Source of the DNA: Acidithiobacillus acidisediminis
Lineage (GTDB): Bacteria > Pseudomonadota > Gammaproteobacteria > Acidithiobacillales > Acidithiobacillaceae
Direction: 5' to 3'
NCBI RefSeq assembly: GCF_023277115.1
Contig: NZ_JALQCS010000001.1
Span: 124,001-188,000, forward strand
Length of the DNA: 64,000 bases
Below are positions 37,982 to 47,705 of this stretch, piece by piece. Every line of letters starts with the position of its first letter. Positions within the stretch are counted from its first letter, which is position 1. The notes beneath the pieces are model-generated. The model saw nothing but the letters and a program-made list of their open reading frames with translations, was not told the origin of the DNA and searched no databases. The position numbers and the translations under genes were made by a program.

Positions 37982-38063
37982 TTGTCAGGTTCAGCCATTC
38001 TACTGTTTGTATCCAGTGCAAGCTCAGGCTACTCTAAAGAAAACATCAGGGAATGGGAAAGGC

Positions 38064-39470
<1,407 letters not shown>

Positions 39471-39727
39471 CGAATCAATCCCGTGTTACATCCATAAACG
39501 ATCGATCGATCAAGCAGTTACGCGTAGCATCTCCGCGCTGTTACAAACCCGGTACAAATACCCGATTCTTCTTTTTATTTCCATAATAACAATGAGTTGC
39601 ATACCTTTCCGGAGAACCGGCGGCCTTCACCTGCCCCCCAATATGTAACAAGCACAATACAATCAAACGCAGCGTACAACTGCGAGATTTATCATTACTT
39701 ACCTGTTTTTTATTGATAATTATATCC
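39471..39727. promoter_or_regulatory. Probable activator-binding region upstream of the amyloid operon
   Basis: AT-rich, noncoding 257-bp stretch between the activator gene and the -24 element. It holds three copies of TGTTACA: 39484-39490 (TGTTACAT), 39539-39545 (TGTTACAA), and, reversed, 39643-39650 (ATGTAACA). A CGCAG(7 nt)CTGCG dyad lies at 39668-39684, about 45-60 bp upstream of the -24 box. Enhancer-binding proteins use such upstream sites; the link to the 38064 gene is inference. Confidence 0.5.
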
Positions 39728-39743
39728 TGGCACGACGATTGCT
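39728..39743 (+). promoter_or_regulatory. Sigma-54 (-24/-12) promoter
   Basis: TGGCAC-GACGA-TTGCT matches the TGGCAC-N5-TTGCW consensus at every fixed position, with the required GG (39729-39730) and GC (39741-39742) ten nucleotides apart. The expected transcript start is near 39754, giving a leader of about 27 nt before the ATG at 39781. It is the best sigma-54 match found in the window and is preceded by a sigma-54 activator gene. Confidence 0.88.
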
Positions 39744-39780: not shown

Positions 39781-40086
39781 ATGATCAGGAAAGCAGATTG
39801 CGCCAGAACCAGCAAAGCACGGTCCACGCTCCTCGCGGGTGCACTGCTCGCCCTGCTCAGCGGACCAGCATTTGCCAATGGCGCACCCAATCTTGGTCAG
39901 CCCGTGCAGGCGAAGGCGCTCGCCCAGGTCTGTGGCAAAGGAGAGCCCATCAATCTCCCGAAAATGCATTCTAGTTCCCCGGGCGTAGTGCTCTGGGATG
40001 AACTCCCTGGCAAGGGTGGGAAAGGGAACGATATTCAGATCGGTTCCCTCAACCTGCAAAACAACACCATGACGAGCGCGCGCTGA
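39781..40086 (+). CDS. Small secreted protein, first gene of the amyloid operon (FapA position)
   Basis: A 101-residue protein. A basic start (MIRKADCARTSKARS), a hydrophobic core LLAGALLALLSGP and the AFA-N site give a signal peptide of about 31 residues. The mature part is about 70 residues, Gly- and Asn-rich toward the end (GKGNDIQIGSLNLQNNT). It occupies the place of fapA, whose product holds the fibre subunits unfolded in the periplasm, but no sequence similarity is claimed. SD GAGGATG fits ATG 39781. Confidence 0.65.
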   Translation: MIRKADCARTSKARSTLLAGALLALLSGPAFANGAPNLGQPVQAKALAQVCGKGEPINLPKMHSSSPGVVLWDELPGKGGKGNDIQIGSLNLQNNTMTSAR

Positions 40087-40098
40087 GGGGCAATGACC

Positions 40099-40716
40099 AT
40101 GTCACGCATCCTGCTTACCGGAATATTTGGGATTGGCGCCCTGTTGGTACTGGAAACGGCTGTCGCCCTGCCCCTTCCCAACAGCGCACAAAGCATCATT
40201 TCCGATAATGCGATGGGCAATGTTCGCGGCACGATTCAGAACAATCTGGCCGCCGGCAACAACAATCTTCAGGCCAATATCGCCAACATCATCATGAACC
40301 CGAATGGTCAGGGCGTTGCAACCCCGTCGGCCCCCGTCGAGCAGCAGGCCAATGGCAAGCAGGCCAAGAATTTCGCCACGCAACAGGCAAAGATCCTCGG
40401 CAACGCCTTCCAGGGCGCGACGGGCCTGATCTCCATCAACCAGGCGGCCGGCGCCAGTAACGTCGAGGCCAATCGTATCGAGATTGTCATAGGCGCGGCC
40501 AAGCCGGTATCCAATCAGATACTTGCCCAGAGTTTACCCAGTGTCCAGAGAGGCACGAACAGCAGTACCCAAGGAGGAAGCAACAGTCAGGTCGCGGTCG
40601 CAGCCACTGCCTTCCACAACGCCGGCGGCATTGCCCAGGTCAATCAGACTTCCGGCTCCGGCAATGCCTCGGCAAACAGTTTCGCTCTCGGGGTGGCTCC
40701 CGGAGTGATGCAGTAA
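40099..40716 (+). CDS. FapB-like minor amyloid subunit
   Basis: A 205-residue secreted protein with a signal peptide ending around VALPLPNS. It contains three imperfect repeats in the G-x-I-x-x-N-x-x-x-G-x-x-N-x-x-x-N pattern: NVRGTIQNNLAAGNNNLQAN, GLISINQAAGASNVEAN, and GGIAQVNQTSGSGNASAN. This is the Fap-repeat chemistry (Asn/Gln/Gly ladders). FapB nucleates fibre growth. ATG 40099 is chosen because GAGGGG then has 8-nt spacing; an ATG six nt earlier is too close. It lies between the first operon gene and the larger FapC-like gene. Confidence 0.78.
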   Translation: MSRILLTGIFGIGALLVLETAVALPLPNSAQSIISDNAMGNVRGTIQNNLAAGNNNLQANIANIIMNPNGQGVATPSAPVEQQANGKQAKNFATQQAKILGNAFQGATGLISINQAAGASNVEANRIEIVIGAAKPVSNQILAQSLPSVQRGTNSSTQGGSNSQVAVAATAFHNAGGIAQVNQTSGSGNASANSFALGVAPGVMQ

Positions 40717-40764
40717 CGTGTAGGTTCCGTAACACTTTTTTCCGTGTCACTAAAGGAGAATACC

Positions 40765-42102
40765 ATGAATACCATCCGTAAAGTAAGCCCCATCGCCCTT
40801 GCCATCGCTGCGCTCTGTGCAGCTCCTCTGGCCTTCGCTAGCGCTGGCGTCAGCAACAGTCAGACCAGCGGGATGAACCATCAGGTCTCCTCATTGAACG
40901 CCACCGGGAATGCAGTTCTGAGTGGCAATGCCGGCGCAAATGCCGGTGGCAACATTGGCTTCAATATCGCCACCGGCTCCCAGAACCAACAGGCCAATGC
41001 CGGCAGCTTGGCTTCGAACACCAATATTGATGATAACGCGTCCTCCAATGCCAGCGTGAATGCCGGCCAAGCCGAGGTGCTGGACTACGCCTGGCAGGTC
41101 ATGAATGGCGCCAATGCTGTAGATTTCATTGGTAATGCCCTGCAGGGCGCCTACGGTAATATCGGCGTGAACATGACCTCGGGCATCTTCAATCAGCAAG
41201 GCAACAACATGGCGGCTTCCCATGCCCAATATTCGGACTACGCCAACGCGTATATCGGTGCCAACCAGACTAGCTTCATGAACATGAGCTATAGCAGCGA
41301 GAACTATGGTGACGATGTTCGTGCCAGCAATGAGACAGGCCTGTACGGCAACGTCCTGCAGAGTGCCTCCGGTAACATTGGCGTCAACGAAGCAGCGGGT
41401 ATCAGCAACCAGCAGAGCAACAGCTTGGCCATCGCCATGGCGGCTAACAAGGATAGCGAAGGCTATCCCATTGGCGCCACAGCCAATATCAACGCGACCC
41501 AGACGATGGCTTGGGATAGCGGCAACGTTCCTAGCGAAGACATGATGTATTTCGAGTCCTATGTGAACAATACTACCGGCCTGGGTACCAATGCTCTGGA
41601 AGGTGCAAATGGTAACATTGGCGCTAATATGGCCTCTGGCAACAGCAACCAGCAGAGCAACAATACTGCGCTGAGCGCCGGCAAGAACACCTATGCCCAC
41701 CAGACGAGCACGGACTACGCGGATGCTACCGCGGGCGCGACGCAGTTTTCGGCGGGCAATGACACGATCGACACCAACGTTCAGGATAGCGCCACCGTCG
41801 ATGGCAACGCTGGCGCAAACGCCTCTGGCAACATCGGCATCAATGTCGTGGCAGGTGCCCAGAACCAGCAGGAAAATGGCTTGGCCATTGCGAGCATGGC
41901 TTCACCCCAGGCCATGGCCAATGCCTCTGCCCCGGTAGAGCAGGTTGCCTACTACAATGGTGGCTCGGCCTCTTGCTCCATGTATAACAGCAACGTCAGT
42001 GGCAGCGCCCTTGCGGGAGCTTCGGGCAACATCGGTCTGAATGTGGCTAGTGGCAACGGGAACCAACAGGTCAATACCCTGGCCATCGCCAGCGCCAAGT
42101 AA
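40765..42102 (+). CDS. fapC: FapC-like major amyloid subunit with at least six repeats
   Basis: A 445-residue secreted protein (signal peptide about 1-26, ending LAFASAG). It contains repeats of the form GNIGxNxxxGxxNQQxNxxA beginning at about residues 60, 129, 201, 281, 353 and 419, plus a degenerate one at the mature N-terminus. They are separated by variable linkers of about 40-55 residues rich in Asn, Ala and Thr. This is the FapC layout (repeat-linker-repeat), but with more repeats than the usual three. Each repeat is preceded by a GNxLxGA-type lead-in. The last repeat lies at the very C-terminus (NVASGNGNQQVNTLAIASAK). Good SD AAAGGAG. Confidence 0.85.
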   Translation: MNTIRKVSPIALAIAALCAAPLAFASAGVSNSQTSGMNHQVSSLNATGNAVLSGNAGANAGGNIGFNIATGSQNQQANAGSLASNTNIDDNASSNASVNAGQAEVLDYAWQVMNGANAVDFIGNALQGAYGNIGVNMTSGIFNQQGNNMAASHAQYSDYANAYIGANQTSFMNMSYSSENYGDDVRASNETGLYGNVLQSASGNIGVNEAAGISNQQSNSLAIAMAANKDSEGYPIGATANINATQTMAWDSGNVPSEDMMYFESYVNNTTGLGTNALEGANGNIGANMASGNSNQQSNNTALSAGKNTYAHQTSTDYADATAGATQFSAGNDTIDTNVQDSATVDGNAGANASGNIGINVVAGAQNQQENGLAIASMASPQAMANASAPVEQVAYYNGGSASCSMYNSNVSGSALAGASGNIGLNVASGNGNQQVNTLAIASAK

Positions 42103-42114
42103 TCCACTTGGCTT

Positions 42115-42140
42115 TTGCCACCCCCCTTCTGGGGTGGCAA
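42115..42140 (+). repeat. 10-bp perfect hairpin after the major amyloid gene
   Basis: TTGCCACCCC and GGGGTGGCAA pair perfectly around a CCTTCT loop 12 bp after the FapC-like stop. There is no T-tract, so it may protect the upstream mRNA from 3'-5' decay or attenuate read-through, which would make the subunit more abundant than its helpers. Confidence 0.75.
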
Positions 42141-42168
42141 CCTTCTGAATTCTTGACCCGGAGGCCTT

Positions 42169-42876
42169 ATGCGTACGCCATCGATCTTGCGCAACTGGAT
42201 GATCATCGGCAGCTTGGCGTCCGGGCTTTTTTGCAGTCCAGCTTCCTTTGCCGCACCCTTTGGGAACATCATTCCCGGAGCAGGTGTAGTGCACGTCCCC
42301 GTACGCAGCATGGTGGGCATGCATTTCATCCATGTCGTGCGTCAACATACGGACTTTTCCTGCGGCGCAGCCTCCCTGGCAACCATCCTGAAATATGGCT
42401 TCAATCGGGACGTGACAGAAGAATCTGTCATGAAAGGGCTGTTTACCGTCAGCAATCCGGCAGAGGTGGAAAAGGTCGGTTTTTCCATGCTCAACCTGAA
42501 AAACTATGTAGACAAAATTGGCCTGCAGGCACAAGGGTACGTTGTCACACCAGCCGAGCTGGAAAAGATCCATATCCCGGTAATCGTCCTGCTTGATCTA
42601 AAAGGATACAAACACTTCGTTGTGCTGGAGAAAACCACCGCCAACAAAGTCTATTTGGCCGATCCAGCGTTGGGAAATCGCATCATGGCGAAGGATATTT
42701 TTTTGAAAGATTGGAACAAGATTGTCTTTGCCGTATTTGGTAAAGGCTTCGATCCACATTCTGTGTTGTTGACTCCTCCGGAAGCCCCAAGCGCTTTACG
42801 CCTGCTCCATGGCGTTCTGCCCAAGGCCCCGCTGGATTCTGCACATTTTGGTTATGATAACGTAAACTATTTTTGA
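42169..42876 (+). CDS. fapD: FapD-like C39 peptidase
   Basis: A 235-residue secreted cysteine peptidase (signal peptide ending SFA-AP). The papain-like C39 set is complete: Gln59, Cys65 in DFSCGAASLATILKYGF, His149 in KGYKHFVVLE, and Asp165 in YLADPALG. In Fap systems this protein is needed for subunit processing or export through FapF. SD GGAGG is present. Its position after the major subunit is that of fapD. Confidence 0.88.
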   Translation: MRTPSILRNWMIIGSLASGLFCSPASFAAPFGNIIPGAGVVHVPVRSMVGMHFIHVVRQHTDFSCGAASLATILKYGFNRDVTEESVMKGLFTVSNPAEVEKVGFSMLNLKNYVDKIGLQAQGYVVTPAELEKIHIPVIVLLDLKGYKHFVVLEKTTANKVYLADPALGNRIMAKDIFLKDWNKIVFAVFGKGFDPHSVLLTPPEAPSALRLLHGVLPKAPLDSAHFGYDNVNYF

Positions 42877-42888
42877 CGGAGAATGGCC

Positions 42889-43641
42889 ATGAAGATCAAG
42901 CATACCCTTCATTCGATCATCATCGGAACACTATTAGGATACACCGGCATTGCTGGGCAAGCGATCGCCGCTCCCTTGGGTCTCACTGCTCCGGTTGTAC
43001 CAGATTCGGTCCTGGCAAAATTGGTCGGCAAGGGAGTGATTGGTGGTCGCATTGTCTATTTTGGCGTACAGATGCAGACCAATTGGACGGCACCAGGAGA
43101 CAATGGCACGTTACAGGGAAATCTGAATATTGCCCTCAACAGTAGCAATAATGTCTTCGTGCCGACCATCACCTATTCGGTACAACATGATCGACTTCCG
43201 TCGACCAACGGCAATACTGGAGCAACTTTTGATGGCGCGGGTCTGGCAAACATCAAGGGGGTTTCCCAGGGAATTCAGATTGCCGGGCAAGGCAATGGGG
43301 TACAAAACGGGATGTCCTTGAATGTGGTGAAAGGTACGCCCAGCAGTTCCGGCGCCGGCAGTACCCCTACCCTGACGCCAGGAACAACCCAGCAGGGCGA
43401 CATCACCATGACCGTACAGCCTGGACAATTATCCATGCTCATCAGCAATGGTGCGAATACCGTCCAACAGGGCATTGGCGCCAATGGTGCCTATCAGCTT
43501 GCCCAGATTGCCAGTAACGGGAATGTGATCAGCAATGAAATGCACATGACCCTTGGTATGGAACCCGGTAGCGTTCATAACATTTCCCAGCAACAGCTCC
43601 AGTCCGTACTGCAGAATGTTATGCCCCCGAACATGCCGTAA
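42889..43641 (+). CDS. FapE-like extracellular minor fibre component
   Basis: A 250-residue secreted protein: signal peptide ending QAIA-AP, a beta-rich N-terminal half, and an Asn/Gly/Gln-rich stretch (GVSQGIQIAGQGNGVQNG) followed by a Ser-Gly-Thr-Pro linker around residues 150-170. This kind of repeat remnant is a feature of FapE. The SD GACGGAGA suits ATG 42889 inside an ATGGCCATGAAG context also used by the next gene. Confidence 0.7.
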   Translation: MKIKHTLHSIIIGTLLGYTGIAGQAIAAPLGLTAPVVPDSVLAKLVGKGVIGGRIVYFGVQMQTNWTAPGDNGTLQGNLNIALNSSNNVFVPTITYSVQHDRLPSTNGNTGATFDGAGLANIKGVSQGIQIAGQGNGVQNGMSLNVVKGTPSSSGAGSTPTLTPGTTQQGDITMTVQPGQLSMLISNGANTVQQGIGANGAYQLAQIASNGNVISNEMHMTLGMEPGSVHNISQQQLQSVLQNVMPPNMP

Positions 43642-43683
43642 CGCTTTTTCAGTGTACAGAATAAAAACATCAAAGGAATGGCC

Positions 43684-45126
43684 ATGAAACCTACTACTAA
43701 AACTCATATCAGCCTCGGCCATGGCCAAGAAATGAGAGCCATACCATTAGCTTCTGGTGTGGCGACGTCTTTGCATCCCGGGGCTGCTGAGAAAGGCACA
43801 AGGGGCCCGCGTCATGGGCTATACTGGTTCCGGTATATCCCAGTATTTGCCAAATTTCTCCTGGCACAGACCGGCGCCATCCTGTGGGTGCTGTTCAGTT
43901 TTTGGATTGCCCTGCCGTGGATCCACAATTTGGACACTGTCATTGGCCCTATTCTTACTGTTTTGATTATCTTGGGTGTAGCGATACTTCCCGGCTATAT
44001 TTCCGGCTTCGTTCTGTTCAGTACCCTGCTGGATCGCCGGCCAAAAATCGTCGAGATTACCGATTATCCTGCGGTGTCGGTCCTGATTGCCGCATACAAT
44101 GAAGAATCCGCCATCACCGATACGTTGAAGTCCGTTTTTGGGCAACACTACCCCGGGGACTTGGAAGTCATCGTCATTGACGATGGTTCGAAGGACACAA
44201 CAGTAGCGAAGGTAGAGGGCTTTGCAGATCCGGCGTTGCGACTCATTCGCCAACCCGTGAATGGTGGCAAGGCAAGCGCTTTGAATGCTGGGCTGCAGCA
44301 GGCCACCCATGACCTGATCATCACCATCGATGCCGACACCTATCTCTACCACAATGCCATTAAATTCATTGTCGGCCGTTATCTGAGCGACCCCAGCAAT
44401 ACGGCTGCGGTGGCCGGAGCCCTTGCTGTGCGCAATTCGCGGAAAAACTGGATCACGCGCTTGCAGGAATGGGATTATTTTCACGGAATTGCCATTGTCA
44501 AGCGGGTACAAAGCCTGTATCAGGGAACCCTGGTTGCCCACGGTGCCTTTTCTCTGTACGAGAAATCCGTTTTACTGGAACTCGGTGGCTGGGCGCCGGT
44601 CGTGGGAGAGGATATCGTACTTTCCTGGGGCATGCTGACAAAAGGCTATCGCATTGGCTACGCCGAAAACGCCGTGGTATTCACCAATGTGCCCGAGAGC
44701 TATCGCCAGTTGTTTCGCCAGAGAAGACGTTGGGCGCGGGGCATGTTCGAGGCGCTTCGTGTCCACCCTCGTATCCTGTTTCAGGCGCGCTTGACCCTGC
44801 AATTTGTGTTCATCAATCTTCTTTTTCCGTTTATCGACCTGAGCTACATGCTGTTTTTTGTACCCGGCATCATCGCTGCGTTCTTTGGTTTCCTATTGAT
44901 CGCGGGGCCGATCACCCTCTTGCTCATCCCTCTGGCCGCCTTGAATAATATGGTGATTTATTCGGTGCAACGACGCATGTTCAAGGCAAGAGGGTTACGT
45001 ATCCGCCGGAATTTGCGCGGCATGTTCCTTTACGTCTTTTTTTCCCAACTTCTCATGAGTCCTGCATCCATTGCCGGTTACGCATCTGAGGTCTTGCGCC
45101 TGAGCAAAAGCTGGGGCACCAAATGA
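43684..45126 (+). CDS. PgaC-like family-2 processive glycosyltransferase
   Basis: A 480-residue inner-membrane enzyme. Two N-terminal membrane segments (about 55-110), then the GT-A domain with IDDGS (Asp166), DAD (216-218), the GED acidic motif and QRRRW at 346-350, then three or more C-terminal segments. Q(Q/R)xRW marks processive synthases of beta-linked polymers, and the order of motifs is closest to PgaC/IcaA (poly-N-acetylglucosamine). No PilZ domain is present. There is no PgaB deacetylase in the operon. It is in the amyloid operon, 42 bp after the FapE-like gene. Confidence 0.85.
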   Translation: MKPTTKTHISLGHGQEMRAIPLASGVATSLHPGAAEKGTRGPRHGLYWFRYIPVFAKFLLAQTGAILWVLFSFWIALPWIHNLDTVIGPILTVLIILGVAILPGYISGFVLFSTLLDRRPKIVEITDYPAVSVLIAAYNEESAITDTLKSVFGQHYPGDLEVIVIDDGSKDTTVAKVEGFADPALRLIRQPVNGGKASALNAGLQQATHDLIITIDADTYLYHNAIKFIVGRYLSDPSNTAAVAGALAVRNSRKNWITRLQEWDYFHGIAIVKRVQSLYQGTLVAHGAFSLYEKSVLLELGGWAPVVGEDIVLSWGMLTKGYRIGYAENAVVFTNVPESYRQLFRQRRRWARGMFEALRVHPRILFQARLTLQFVFINLLFPFIDLSYMLFFVPGIIAAFFGFLLIAGPITLLLIPLAALNNMVIYSVQRRMFKARGLRIRRNLRGMFLYVFFSQLLMSPASIAGYASEVLRLSKSWGTK

Positions 45127-46580
45127 AGAGCGGATCGCTGGCCCTGGCAGGGGGGCTCTGCGCGCTCGCCGTCAGTCAGCTCGCCCTCGCCGAGCACGAC
45201 ACTACGCCGGCGCGCGACATCCGCGCGGGACGTCTCGCGTTGCAGCAGAATCACCCGCAGGCTGCCCTAAATGCATTCAACTCTGCCCTGGAGGGGATCC
45301 AGATGGCGCCCGAACGATATTCCTCCGATCTTCTCGCTGCCCTCTCCGGAAAAGGCTATGCAGCGCTTTGGCTCGGAAACGATCATCAGGCCTATAGCGC
45401 TTACGCGCGCGCCCTTCCCTTGGCGCGAAAACCCAAAGATCGCAAGGTGGTCAGCACGGGCCTAGCCCGCGCCTTGATTGCCAATGGCAGGCCCATCGCG
45501 GCCTACAACCAGGTAAAGCCGTACCTGCAGGATGCACCCGCGGCGCTACAGAGCGCCATTGCCGCCAATCTCCTGAACTGGAACAATACCGCGGCACAAG
45601 ATCTGGCGTCGGCGGCACCCACAGGGGTGTATGAAGGGCCCGACTGGCAGGCGCGTCTGTTTCGAATTACGCGCAATTATGTCGATTTTGCATTGCGTCC
45701 CAAGCTGCGCCTGGGATTTCACTACAGCAGCGACAGTGACAGCAACATCAATCAGGTCTACTCAGCGGACGCCCTATGGCCTGGACAATGGCTCAGCGCC
45801 GCCAAGCTCAATCCCACCTTCTGGCAGGCTGGCTTGCAGCAGACGCAGGTTTCCGACCCCACCGGCCAGGTAGGCCTCAGCGCCATTCGCGCGGGCTGGA
45901 CGGCCGTACCAAACCGCAATTGGCAATACACGGTGCTGGGCGGACTGGGGACCAGTCGCAACTGGACCTACGCCACTGTTCACGCGCTTGCCCTCTATCA
46001 ACCCAGTGACAGCTGGGGTCTGGACGCCAGCGCCGATCGCGAACCGATTCGCACCTATGCTGCGGTGCAAAATCACATCCTCGTCAACACCTTGAGTTTT
46101 GGTGGATTTGGGCGCTTGCGGGACATCGGCACCCTCAGCGCCACGTATTTTCACCAATCCTTTTCCGATAACAACCAACGGAACGGGTTGGTGATTCGCG
46201 CAACCCCGGAGTTTCTGAGTCTCGGTCGCTGGCCAATCAGCCTGGGGGTTCAGGGATACTATCGGCAGTATCACAGCAGTACCGTACCGTACAGCGGCTA
46301 TTTCAATCCGCGGAACTATCGTGAGGCATTAGGCTACCTCATCTATGTGCAAAAGTTCTCGCCCTATTGGACGCTGCGCTTTTACTCCGGCTTCGGCTCC
46401 CAAACCATCGATGGCGCTACCTCTGGTGTCCAGGATTATTTTGGTACGTTAACCGGCCTGATCGCACCCTACTGCGCGATTTCCCTGACTGGCGGCTACA
46501 GCACGATTGCCAATGCTTACGGTGGTGGACCTGGGTACCATCGCAGTTATTTTGGTGGGGAGATTTCCATTCCCTTCTGA
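45123..46580 (+). CDS. TPR/beta-barrel outer-membrane polysaccharide exporter, short PgaA/BcsC-like
   Basis: A 485-residue secreted protein with signal peptide (about 1-23). The N-terminal helical TPR part (about 30-190) is much shorter than in PgaA. The C-terminal part (from about 195) is a beta-barrel with Tyr/Gly-rich amphipathic strands that ends with Phe (GGEISIPF), the outer-membrane signature. Its ATG overlaps the glycosyltransferase stop (ATGA), so they form an inner-membrane synthase/outer-membrane pore pair. Confidence 0.83.
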   Translation: MKSGSLALAGGLCALAVSQLALAEHDTTPARDIRAGRLALQQNHPQAALNAFNSALEGIQMAPERYSSDLLAALSGKGYAALWLGNDHQAYSAYARALPLARKPKDRKVVSTGLARALIANGRPIAAYNQVKPYLQDAPAALQSAIAANLLNWNNTAAQDLASAAPTGVYEGPDWQARLFRITRNYVDFALRPKLRLGFHYSSDSDSNINQVYSADALWPGQWLSAAKLNPTFWQAGLQQTQVSDPTGQVGLSAIRAGWTAVPNRNWQYTVLGGLGTSRNWTYATVHALALYQPSDSWGLDASADREPIRTYAAVQNHILVNTLSFGGFGRLRDIGTLSATYFHQSFSDNNQRNGLVIRATPEFLSLGRWPISLGVQGYYRQYHSSTVPYSGYFNPRNYREALGYLIYVQKFSPYWTLRFYSGFGSQTIDGATSGVQDYFGTLTGLIAPYCAISLTGGYSTIANAYGGGPGYHRSYFGGEISIPF

Positions 46581-46631: not shown

Positions 46632-47705
46632 TTAGAGGTTATAAGGAATGGTCGCCGTCAGTTGGAAATTCGGCGCGCTGGAAGTCAACCCAATCCCAAG
46701 ATTCATGATGAGCGAACTCGTCGGAGTAAAGGCATAGGTCAGCCCCAGATTCGCCACCCCTACGTTTGCCCCGCTGCCAACGATAGGCGTCCACGCCCCG
46801 CCTTCCGTACGGATACTGGTTTGCTGCTGCAGTCGGTCGGCAAAGGAGGTGCTTACGCTCAGACGATCGTTGAGGGCATACGCGACGCCCATACTGAACT
46901 GAAAGGCGTTGCCCAAGCGAACCTGTCCCGGCTGGACAACCCCCTCCGTAGTACTGATGTCCGGGAAATTGTGCTGCAAGTTATAGTAGTAGTTGGCGCT
47001 ACCGAAAAATATCGCCGGATCGGACGTGGACACAAAGGAAATCCCAGGGGTAATGGTCCAGACTCCATTACCCGTCGGTAGTTTGGTGGGCACCTGGAGA
47101 TTGGTATTGTTGGGGTCCGGCTGATAGACCTTGATCCCATACGGGTTGATGCCTGAGGGCGTGGTCAGCAGGAGACTTGCCGTCAGGGTTGGCCAGTTTT
47201 TATCTTCCTGCAGCAGGTTGTAATAGGCACCAAAACTGATGTCTCCCAGGCGTGGGCCGCCGGAGGTCACGGTGGCCTCGCCATACTGGTTGCTAGCATA
47301 GTTTACCCCGCCAATCTCGTAGGTACTTTGCCGATAGACCATGGGGACATTCAGCACGAGCTGCAAGCGCCGCCCTAAGGGCACATAGGCGGATTCCGTA
47401 AAGGTGAAGATGCTCGACTTGACCTTGCTGACGTTGATATTACCGAGAAAGATAGCGCCCAGGGCGAGAAAGCCATTCAAGTTGATGGTGTTCTGGTCCG
47501 AGTAGGCGTAAGACATACTCGATTGCAGCGTAATATGGTCATAAAAAAAATCGGTATTCTGTTGCAGGATCGCCTTCTTGCTGGCCGATTCCGGAGGCGC
47601 CTTGAGGTTCTGTTGCGCCGTATCCTGCGCCATGGCGAAACTTGAACTGCCCAGGAGGGAGAACAACAAGGTTGTTGCCAGGACCGACTGTATGCGCCGT
47701 TTCAT
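46632..47705 (-). CDS. FapF-like outer-membrane beta-barrel (possible amyloid secretion pore)
   Basis: A 357-residue outer-membrane protein: signal peptide (about 1-26), a short polar/helical mature N-terminus (QDTAQQNLKAPPESASKKAI), then a series of amphipathic strands ending in YNL. Barrel residue count and the helical lead resemble FapF, the trimeric pore that secretes Fap subunits. It also resembles the phenol-degradation MetA-type transporter family. Unlike canonical fap operons it is on the opposite strand at the end of the cluster. SD GGAG before ATG 47705. The FapF role is an inference from position. Confidence 0.65.
   Translation of the reverse strand: MKRRIQSVLATTLLFSLLGSSSFAMAQDTAQQNLKAPPESASKKAILQQNTDFFYDHITLQSSMSYAYSDQNTINLNGFLALGAIFLGNINVSKVKSSIFTFTESAYVPLGRRLQLVLNVPMVYRQSTYEIGGVNYASNQYGEATVTSGGPRLGDISFGAYYNLLQEDKNWPTLTASLLLTTPSGINPYGIKVYQPDPNNTNLQVPTKLPTGNGVWTITPGISFVSTSDPAIFFGSANYYYNLQHNFPDISTTEGVVQPGQVRLGNAFQFSMGVAYALNDRLSVSTSFADRLQQQTSIRTEGGAWTPIVGSGANVGVANLGLTYAFTPTSSLIMNLGIGLTSSAPNFQLTATIPYNL

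Follow-up and report, generated by a model that had tools for sequence, protein, structure and literature searches.

Studies of the biofilm matrix usually treat amyloid and polysaccharide as distinct components. A matrix protein and a polysaccharide are under shared control in Escherichia coli (curli and cellulose) and in Vibrio cholerae (vps and rbm), but the genes concerned lie in separate operons, whereas in the locus described here they form one same-strand run. This locus occupies positions 39781-46580 of the window, a 64,000-nucleotide stretch of contig 1 of the 2.81-Mb genome of Acidithiobacillus acidisediminis, and is probably a locus for biofilm matrix, with a Fap amyloid system and, joined to it in the same-strand run, an exopolysaccharide system of two genes and of the synthase-dependent type. 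It is of relevance to the biofilms of bioleaching bacteria.

The closest described amyloid system is the Fap system of Pseudomonas (fapABCDEF). Acidithiobacillus has been placed among the genera that depart from the single fapABCDEF operon, most commonly by loss of fapA or separation of fapF, the available text not stating which of these it shows (PMC3792158). The same source gives two repeats for FapB and 4-8 repeats for FapC of Acidithiobacillus and reports fapA to be missing in 6 of 16 genera, hence not essential to Fap; the terms 'glycosyl' and 'polysaccharide' do not occur in its available text. Like the Pseudomonas system, the window holds homologs of FapB to FapF, with a repeat-bearing FapC, a C39 peptidase FapD and a sigma-54 activator gene nearby; unlike it, the window has no recognisable fapA (a small secreted gene, here SmallA, stands in that place), carries fapF on the opposite strand, encodes a FapF without the N-terminal coiled coil and has a synthase and an exporter added. 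Fap in Acidithiobacillus, as a deviating operon, is therefore known already. What appears from the genomes surveyed to be new is a glycan synthase at the fap locus in 12 of the 13 genomes of the Acidithiobacillaceae with fapB-F, and its recurrence with unrelated synthase sets. No account of a fap operon with a glycan synthase, or of such recurrence, was found among open-licence titles and abstract openings, which is no proof of absence from print; in the text available, a paper on a zetaproteobacterial stalk cluster mentions neither Fap nor amyloid, and one on A. caldus RpoF does not mention Fap.

On the glycan side, the system closest in make-up is NfrA/NfrB of the E. coli NGR exopolysaccharide, which likewise consists of one family 2 glycosyltransferase (GT2) and one pore of tetratricopeptide repeats (TPR) and a 16-strand barrel (PMC8669472). 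NfrB has a C-terminal MshEN domain, whereas the window glycosyltransferase (GT) has no MshEN match and is linked to amyloid genes. The pgaABCD system is similar in that the window GT2 is of the PgaC kind and its barrel is PgaA-like, and dissimilar in that the window genome has no PgaD, the operon has no PgaB and the scores lie under the cut-offs.

Seven open reading frames (ORFs) on the plus strand fill the interval (Table 1), as had been described in a first-pass annotation made from the sequence alone; the intergenic gaps are 6, 45, 66, 12 and 42 nt, and the last junction is an ATGA overlap of 4 nt, also noted at that time (45123 versus 45126). The locus is larger than the seven-gene set then proposed, as a convergent fapF adjoins it and a gene for a sigma-54 bacterial enhancer-binding protein (bEBP) precedes it, both of which had been overlooked. 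In an NCBIfam search, FapB to FapF of the window matched the Fap profiles with E values from 1.9e-17 to 5.9e-100, all scoring below the curated equivalog cut-offs, and the earlier Fap assignments were borne out by the matches of FapB, FapC, FapD and FapE. With clustered FapB and FapC repeat subunits and homologs of FapD, FapE and FapF, the amyloid half is, on profile evidence, a Fap system. A regular expression for the FapC repeat found four copies, and six were counted on reading the translation. SmallA had no Pfam or NCBIfam family match; a profile made from it gave weak matches (16-36 bits) in some other fap loci. Residues 34-355 of FapF aligned with positions 97-418 of the 420-position model NF058560, which places the start of the match near the N-terminus of the protein, and no N-terminal coiled coil was found. 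FapF also lacks this stretch in the Acidithiobacillaceae and in three loci of other families (L203-L205), while 13 other strong FapF matches in the survey of the class begin at model position 5-25. The short form is present in every synthase-bearing locus and also in the synthase-free L204, and could reflect shared descent.

The best NCBIfam match of the GT was PgaC_IcaA (2e-56), at 192 bits versus a cut-off of 422. An alignment of 32 GT sequences conserves DGS, DxD, GEDIV, QRxRW and a C-terminal KxWGTK (WAT in one row). The AlphaFold2 (AF2) model of the GT had a mean local confidence (pLDDT) of 83, with residues 1-48 below 50, and its nearest folds were hyaluronan synthase, an archaeal mannosyltransferase (6yv7) and cellulose synthase; Foldseek E values against hyaluronan synthase and BcsA were 6e-15 to 4e-12, at template-modelling (TM) scores of about 0.5-0.58. 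By motifs and model, the GT is predicted to be a membrane GT2 and fits a processive polymerase. The exporter gave weak matches to the PgaA barrel profiles (Pfam 9.6e-5, NCBIfam 3.4e-6), and a sequence search of the PDB returned for the most part TPR proteins and chance matches, with PgaA at E 0.25, so that its identity was settled by the fold search. Its AF2 model (pLDDT 92.5) has TPR-like helices at residues 29-191 and 16 strands at 194-484, the predicted fold of a TPR-plus-barrel outer-membrane pore, and was closest to PgaA (4y25; Z 25.7, root-mean-square deviation 2.7, 277 residues aligned), BcsC (6tzk; Z 24.8) and PelB (9h80; Z 23.9), the next-best folds being unrelated porins at Z 16.8. 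Judged from these models, GT and exporter together look like a minimal synthase-dependent exopolysaccharide system.

A scan of genome contigs gave 213 confirmed GT loci, the best 80 of which were kept; seven of the 80 were taken as Acidithiobacillaceae (including two contigs of the metagenome-assembled genome YP4.bin20, the contigs of which match G027). GT and exporter were both present in 78 of these best 80. Among the 78 pairs, which lie in other loci, the exporter stood at a 4-nt overlap in 48 when its start was set by a first-ATG rule, and an in-frame start was available there in 69; the frequency of this overlap indicates that the coupling belongs to the pair itself. When the neighbours of the GT loci were clustered, no partner beyond GT, exporter, the fap genes of the family and reading-frame shadows was seen in more than a minority.

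The seven genes were said in the first pass to form one co-directional unit behind a sigma-54 promoter, and a consensus -24/-12 box was indeed found 37 nt upstream of the first ATG; it is the single strict-pattern match on both strands of a 19.9-kb stretch (L067). In the 42-nt junction between fapE and the GT gene (43641-43684), searches for sigma-54, sigma-70-like and terminator-like sites and for inverted repeats all came back empty, the promoter and terminator scan being a weak test in that its sites over the region were not above shuffles. Neither a separating site at this junction nor a lack of Fap homology in the repeat proteins, either of which would have spoken against a joined operon, was thus encountered.

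The conservation of the arrangement was assessed in 29 genomes of the family with profiles built from the window proteins, which miss very divergent genes, and in fetched stretches some of which are cut by contig ends. FapF was strong (>270 bits) in 16 genomes and weak in three, the latter having divergent clusters without FapE; the GT was found in 12 of the 29 and the exporter in the same 12. Genes fapB-F were kept in 13 of the 16 strong-FapF genomes (fapD being broken in G002), and in 12 of these 13 a glycan synthase, of one of two unrelated kinds, was present at the fap locus (in G008 as judged across contigs), while G004 has fapB-F without a synthase there. The GT/exporter pair lies directly behind fapE on the same strand in G000, G002 and G013, and also in G001 (69% complete, no fapF detected). 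It lies beyond fapF, as seen from fapE, in G015, G017, G018, G023 and G027 (in the last about 1.9 kb from fapF), and apparently in G008, in which one contig stops behind fapF and the contig with the GT opens with similar upstream sequence. In G010 (L045/L186) fapD, fapE and most of fapC are lost, and GT, exporter and fapF remain, the pair standing on the same strand behind the fapC remnant; in G005 and G006 fapF is present and fapB-E were not found in the fetched stretch. A second synthase set, consisting of a TPR-YaiO barrel, a HEAT-repeat protein and another GT2, is present in G007, G014 and G021, from which the pair is absent; it lies between fapE and fapF in the first two and ahead of fapF in G021 (where fapF is split over two contig ends), and its GT was found in 3 of the 29 genomes (E <= 1e-50), in all three at fap.

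Eleven GTs of the family formed one clade (support 99/98), which points to a probable single arrival of this first type of synthase, followed by rearrangement and loss. In nine genomes, the pairwise distances of the three proteins GT, FapF and FapE correlated with r of 0.92-0.94 (GT-FapF 0.93, GT-FapE 0.92), as expected of joint vertical descent, although vertical descent of unlinked genes would give the same. In G002, an insert about 1.3 kb long splits fapD, and a small contig carries a further, partial copy of fapC-fapD-fapE-GT-exporter (L181:6850-8875, L182). Larger GT2 genes, with about 260 bits to the GT profile, were seen less than 5 kb from fap at L046:1892-4249 (G013, 785 amino acids) and L058:4775-6940 (G012, one of the three weak-FapF genomes, 721 amino acids).

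A -24/-12 box (TTGC or CTGC) precedes SmallA in all 14 of the family fap operons examined, CTGC replacing TTGC in Acidithiobacillus-type genomes and G001 having unread bases there. In the six genomes, apparently including G008, that have fapF between fapE and the GT gene, the GT gene has a strict sigma-54 box of its own in five, and in the sixth, G027, a looser box, CGGCATGAAAACTGCT, was picked out post hoc ahead of it; the fapE-GT gaps of G000, G001, G002 and G013 gave no sigma-54 box. Outside the family, a strict box near the GT start was present in 4 of 8 Dyella loci and one Luteimonas locus, that is, in 5 of 73 loci versus about 0.6 expected (at a density of 32 matches per 2441 kb-strand), which, the Dyella loci being related, amounts to about two observations.

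The motif TGTTACA/TGTAACA occurred in 11 copies in the 14 family fap upstream regions (dinucleotide shuffles: mean 0.8, maximum 6, 0 of 500 reaching 11) and in 4 copies in 5 GT upstream regions, which are homologous to one another (shuffles: mean 0.4, maximum 3), often near -80, -126 or -175 to -189. As the motif was picked from the same sequences the test is post hoc, and 6 of the 14 fap upstream regions have none, so its reading as upstream activator sites is suggestive only. The bEBP combines VpsR, sigma-54 AAA and Fis helix-turn-helix domains (Pfam Sigma54_activat 3e-75, VpsR 2e-21, HTH_8 2.4e-9) and is 51% identical over 401 amino acids to a bEBP of the same domains beside the canonical fap cluster of G770; a sigma-54 activator gene was nearby in 16 of 18 fap loci in the survey of the phylum. 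In Pseudomonas fluorescens, fapA is driven by the bEBP BrfA, which senses cyclic di-GMP (c-di-GMP) and for which c-di-GMP binding has been reported (PMC13101488). The window bEBP is likely to be the activator of the fap locus.

Beyond the family, FapF was detected in 69 of 369 genomes of the class (E <= 0.001) and FapE in 22 of 397 genomes of the phylum, and stretches were fetched for each FapF match with E below about 1e-30 and for every new FapE match. This gave 34 FapE loci (L059-L061, L193-L205, L221-L238), those from the phylum survey belonging largely to one family (f157). A GT2 was found in two of them, L203 (G283) and L205 (G229), which are of two families, in both cases between fapE and fapF; the chance of a GT2 in a given 6-kb stretch is about 2% (8 PF13641 matches in the 2.81-Mb genome). 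This third set comprises in L205 (3664-8800) a WecB-type UDP-N-acetylglucosamine 2-epimerase (1.2e-99), a membrane protein, a GT2 and a bactofilin-like protein just under the cut-off, and in L203 (10098-15258) a GT2 found by the scan with epimerase, membrane protein and bactofilin-like partners judged by eye. The epimerase hints at a glycan containing N-acetylmannosamine. That the three synthase types are independent is judged from their differing gene sets and not from a full GT2 tree. No GT2 was seen in the loci limited to FapD/FapF (L206-L219).

Several observations weigh against a matrix locus of joined halves. No GT2 was detected in the fetched stretch of 32 of the 34 outside FapE loci, in agreement with the earlier statement that canonical Fap clusters mostly hold the amyloid part only, and fap is thus common without a synthase. 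Conversely, fap genes were seen in the fetched stretch of 4 of the 7 Acidithiobacillaceae GT loci and in none of the 73 others among the best 80, so that the pair can presumably work without the fibre. As the type 1 GTs form one clade, a small number of events may account for the linkage in the family. In G009 no fapF was detected; its GT and exporter sit on an 8.6-kb contig, and no sigma-54 box was found ahead of that GT. GC-rich inverted repeats without a T run, seen by eye in the fapE-GT gaps of G013 and G001, could attenuate read-through. A Pfam scan of the GT itself gave no match to PilZ or MshEN, the c-di-GMP domains, and in the vesicle proteome of F. caldus, as given in its main text, FapF and FapD are named and the loci in between are not (PMC10853474).

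A rival explanation is that the two halves are neighbours only, the pair having landed beside fap in an ancestor and the halves making separate materials with no shared use. The want of fap at the 73 outside pair loci, a single GT clade that could mean one insertion, and other GT2 genes near some fap loci, such as the two larger ones noted above, are all in keeping with it; we nevertheless consider it fairly unlikely, given that an unrelated second set stands at the locus in three genomes of the family and a third in two genomes of other families, that a strict sigma-54 box precedes the GT in five of the six genomes where it is separated, and that two genera, in four genomes together, retain the same-strand fusion, as does G010 behind its fapC remnant. 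That the GT instead glycosylates Fap proteins or a surface lipid, with no secreted polymer, is very improbable: the archaeal mannosyltransferase is among its nearest solved structures, but it travels with an outer-membrane exporter gene in nearly all of the kept loci, and the fold of that exporter matches polymer pores.

The first-pass annotation had also pointed to the lack of PgaB and PgaD partners, which was upheld: PgaD (PF13994) was not found in the whole genome, an E. coli control being positive, and Pfam gave no PgaB in the operon. Membership of pga, the system of poly-N-acetylglucosamine (PNAG), was rejected on the PgaC score and the missing PgaD. A PgaD fused within the long N-terminus of the GT (two helices before the catalytic domain) was also considered and rejected, there being no PgaD match in the genome and residues 1-48 being of very low confidence. 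It is quite improbable that the product of GT and exporter is PNAG, the roles of PgaB and PgaD being filled by proteins encoded elsewhere; PgaC_IcaA as best match of the GT, the PgaA-like barrel and one polysaccharide deacetylase (PF01522) protein elsewhere in the genome would fit this, whereas the distance to the PgaC cut-off, the negative PgaD search and the lack of a conserved third partner at the GT loci do not.

If the locus is, as we consider probable, an amyloid system joined to an exopolysaccharide system, then a bEBP of VpsR/BrfA type, probably responsive to c-di-GMP, would open the sigma-54 promoter at 39728, and a single transcript would yield the FapB, FapC and FapE fibre subunits, the FapD peptidase, the GT2 and the TPR/barrel pore. 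The GT2 would polymerise a sugar nucleotide and thread the chain outward, the pore would carry it across the outer membrane, FapF, from its convergent gene, would export the fibre, and fibre and glycan would be produced together at the surface as matrix. The earlier suggestion that the two are made as one matrix material is an inference from signs of co-regulation and recurrent linkage, which have no bearing on a physical composite; one same-strand run and recurring unrelated synthases make the idea of amyloid plus glycan as one material directly testable.

Table 1. Features of the fap and exopolysaccharide locus in the window
Feature	Position	Strand	Basis or remark
VpsR-domain sigma-54 enhancer-binding protein (bEBP)	38061..39470	+	Pfam; likely activator of the locus
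Candidate activator motifs TGTTACA/TGTAACA	39484..39650	unstranded	Starts at -244, -189 and -84 relative to the sigma-54 box
Sigma-54 -24/-12 box TGGCACGACGATTGCT	39728..39743	+	Strict pattern match
SmallA, small secreted protein in the fapA position	39781..40086	+	No Pfam or NCBIfam match; kept in the family
FapB, two repeats	40093..40716	+	NF058557, 1.9e-17
FapC, six GNIGxN...NQQ repeats	40762..42102	+	NF058558, 5.5e-42; repeats counted by eye in the translation
FapD, C39 peptidase	42169..42876	+	NF058616, 1.4e-63; Pfam Peptidase_C39, 6.3e-25
FapE, leader-like motif VPDSVLAKLVGK	42889..43641	+	NF058559, 1.2e-20
Predicted membrane GT2 polysaccharide synthase	43684..45126 (earliest in-frame ATG 43678)	+	Profiles, motifs, AF2 model
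Predicted TPR and 16-strand barrel exporter	45123..46580	+	4-nt overlap with GT; AF2 fold
FapF amyloid pore, convergent, without N-terminal coiled-coil stretch	46632..47705	-	NF058560, 5.9e-100

A wider proposal can be put forward tentatively, and with more doubt than confidence: fap loci may be composite-matrix loci, different synthases having been captured in at least three lineages because the fibre co-assembles with a glycan made at the same time, and in acidophilic sulfur oxidisers an amyloid-glycan hybrid may be the unidentified filamentous matrix. A pelD mutant of A. thiooxidans overmakes a filamentous structure that is proteinaceous by the authors' inference and of unknown nature, amyloid being, according to them, absent or uncharacterised; 'Fap' does not occur in the main text of that paper (PMC5852609). 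In F. caldus, like A. thiooxidans an acidophilic sulfur oxidiser of bioleaching use, FapF and FapD were detected in vesicles (PMC10853474), which indicates at least partial expression of such a locus, and the gene order of G013 agrees with the F. caldus tags Acaty_c0525 (FapF), c0529 (FapD) and c0530 (FapC) given there.

The peptidase FapD, the substrate of which was still undetermined in 2018 (PMC6173800), may also be approached from these sequences. By mass spectrometry, FapE alone among the Fap proteins was fully processed at its N-terminus (PMC5557850, PMC6173800). A double-glycine-like leader pattern, [LIVM][STPNDEA]xxx[LMI]xx[VILMAC]xG[KRG] within the first 130 residues, was found in 28 of 30 distinct FapE proteins (shuffled mean 0.4) and 17 of 24 SmallA-like proteins (shuffled mean 0.3), compared with none of 28 FapB, none of 14 FapC, 1 of 56 FapF and 1 of 50 FapD. 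Some FapB carry a looser form, and the window SmallA has a loose form, ALAQVCGKG, outside the strict pattern. The conserved motif in FapE and SmallA thus offers a candidate cut site for FapD.

After the GT/exporter pair of G009, a large repetitive protein with no Pfam match at 0.01 (L183:6582-8579) runs off the contig. Two SmallA-like genes, L043:3019-3378 and L041:18596-18946, were seen apart from a fapB-E run, each right behind a sigma-54 box and at most 8 kb from fapF.

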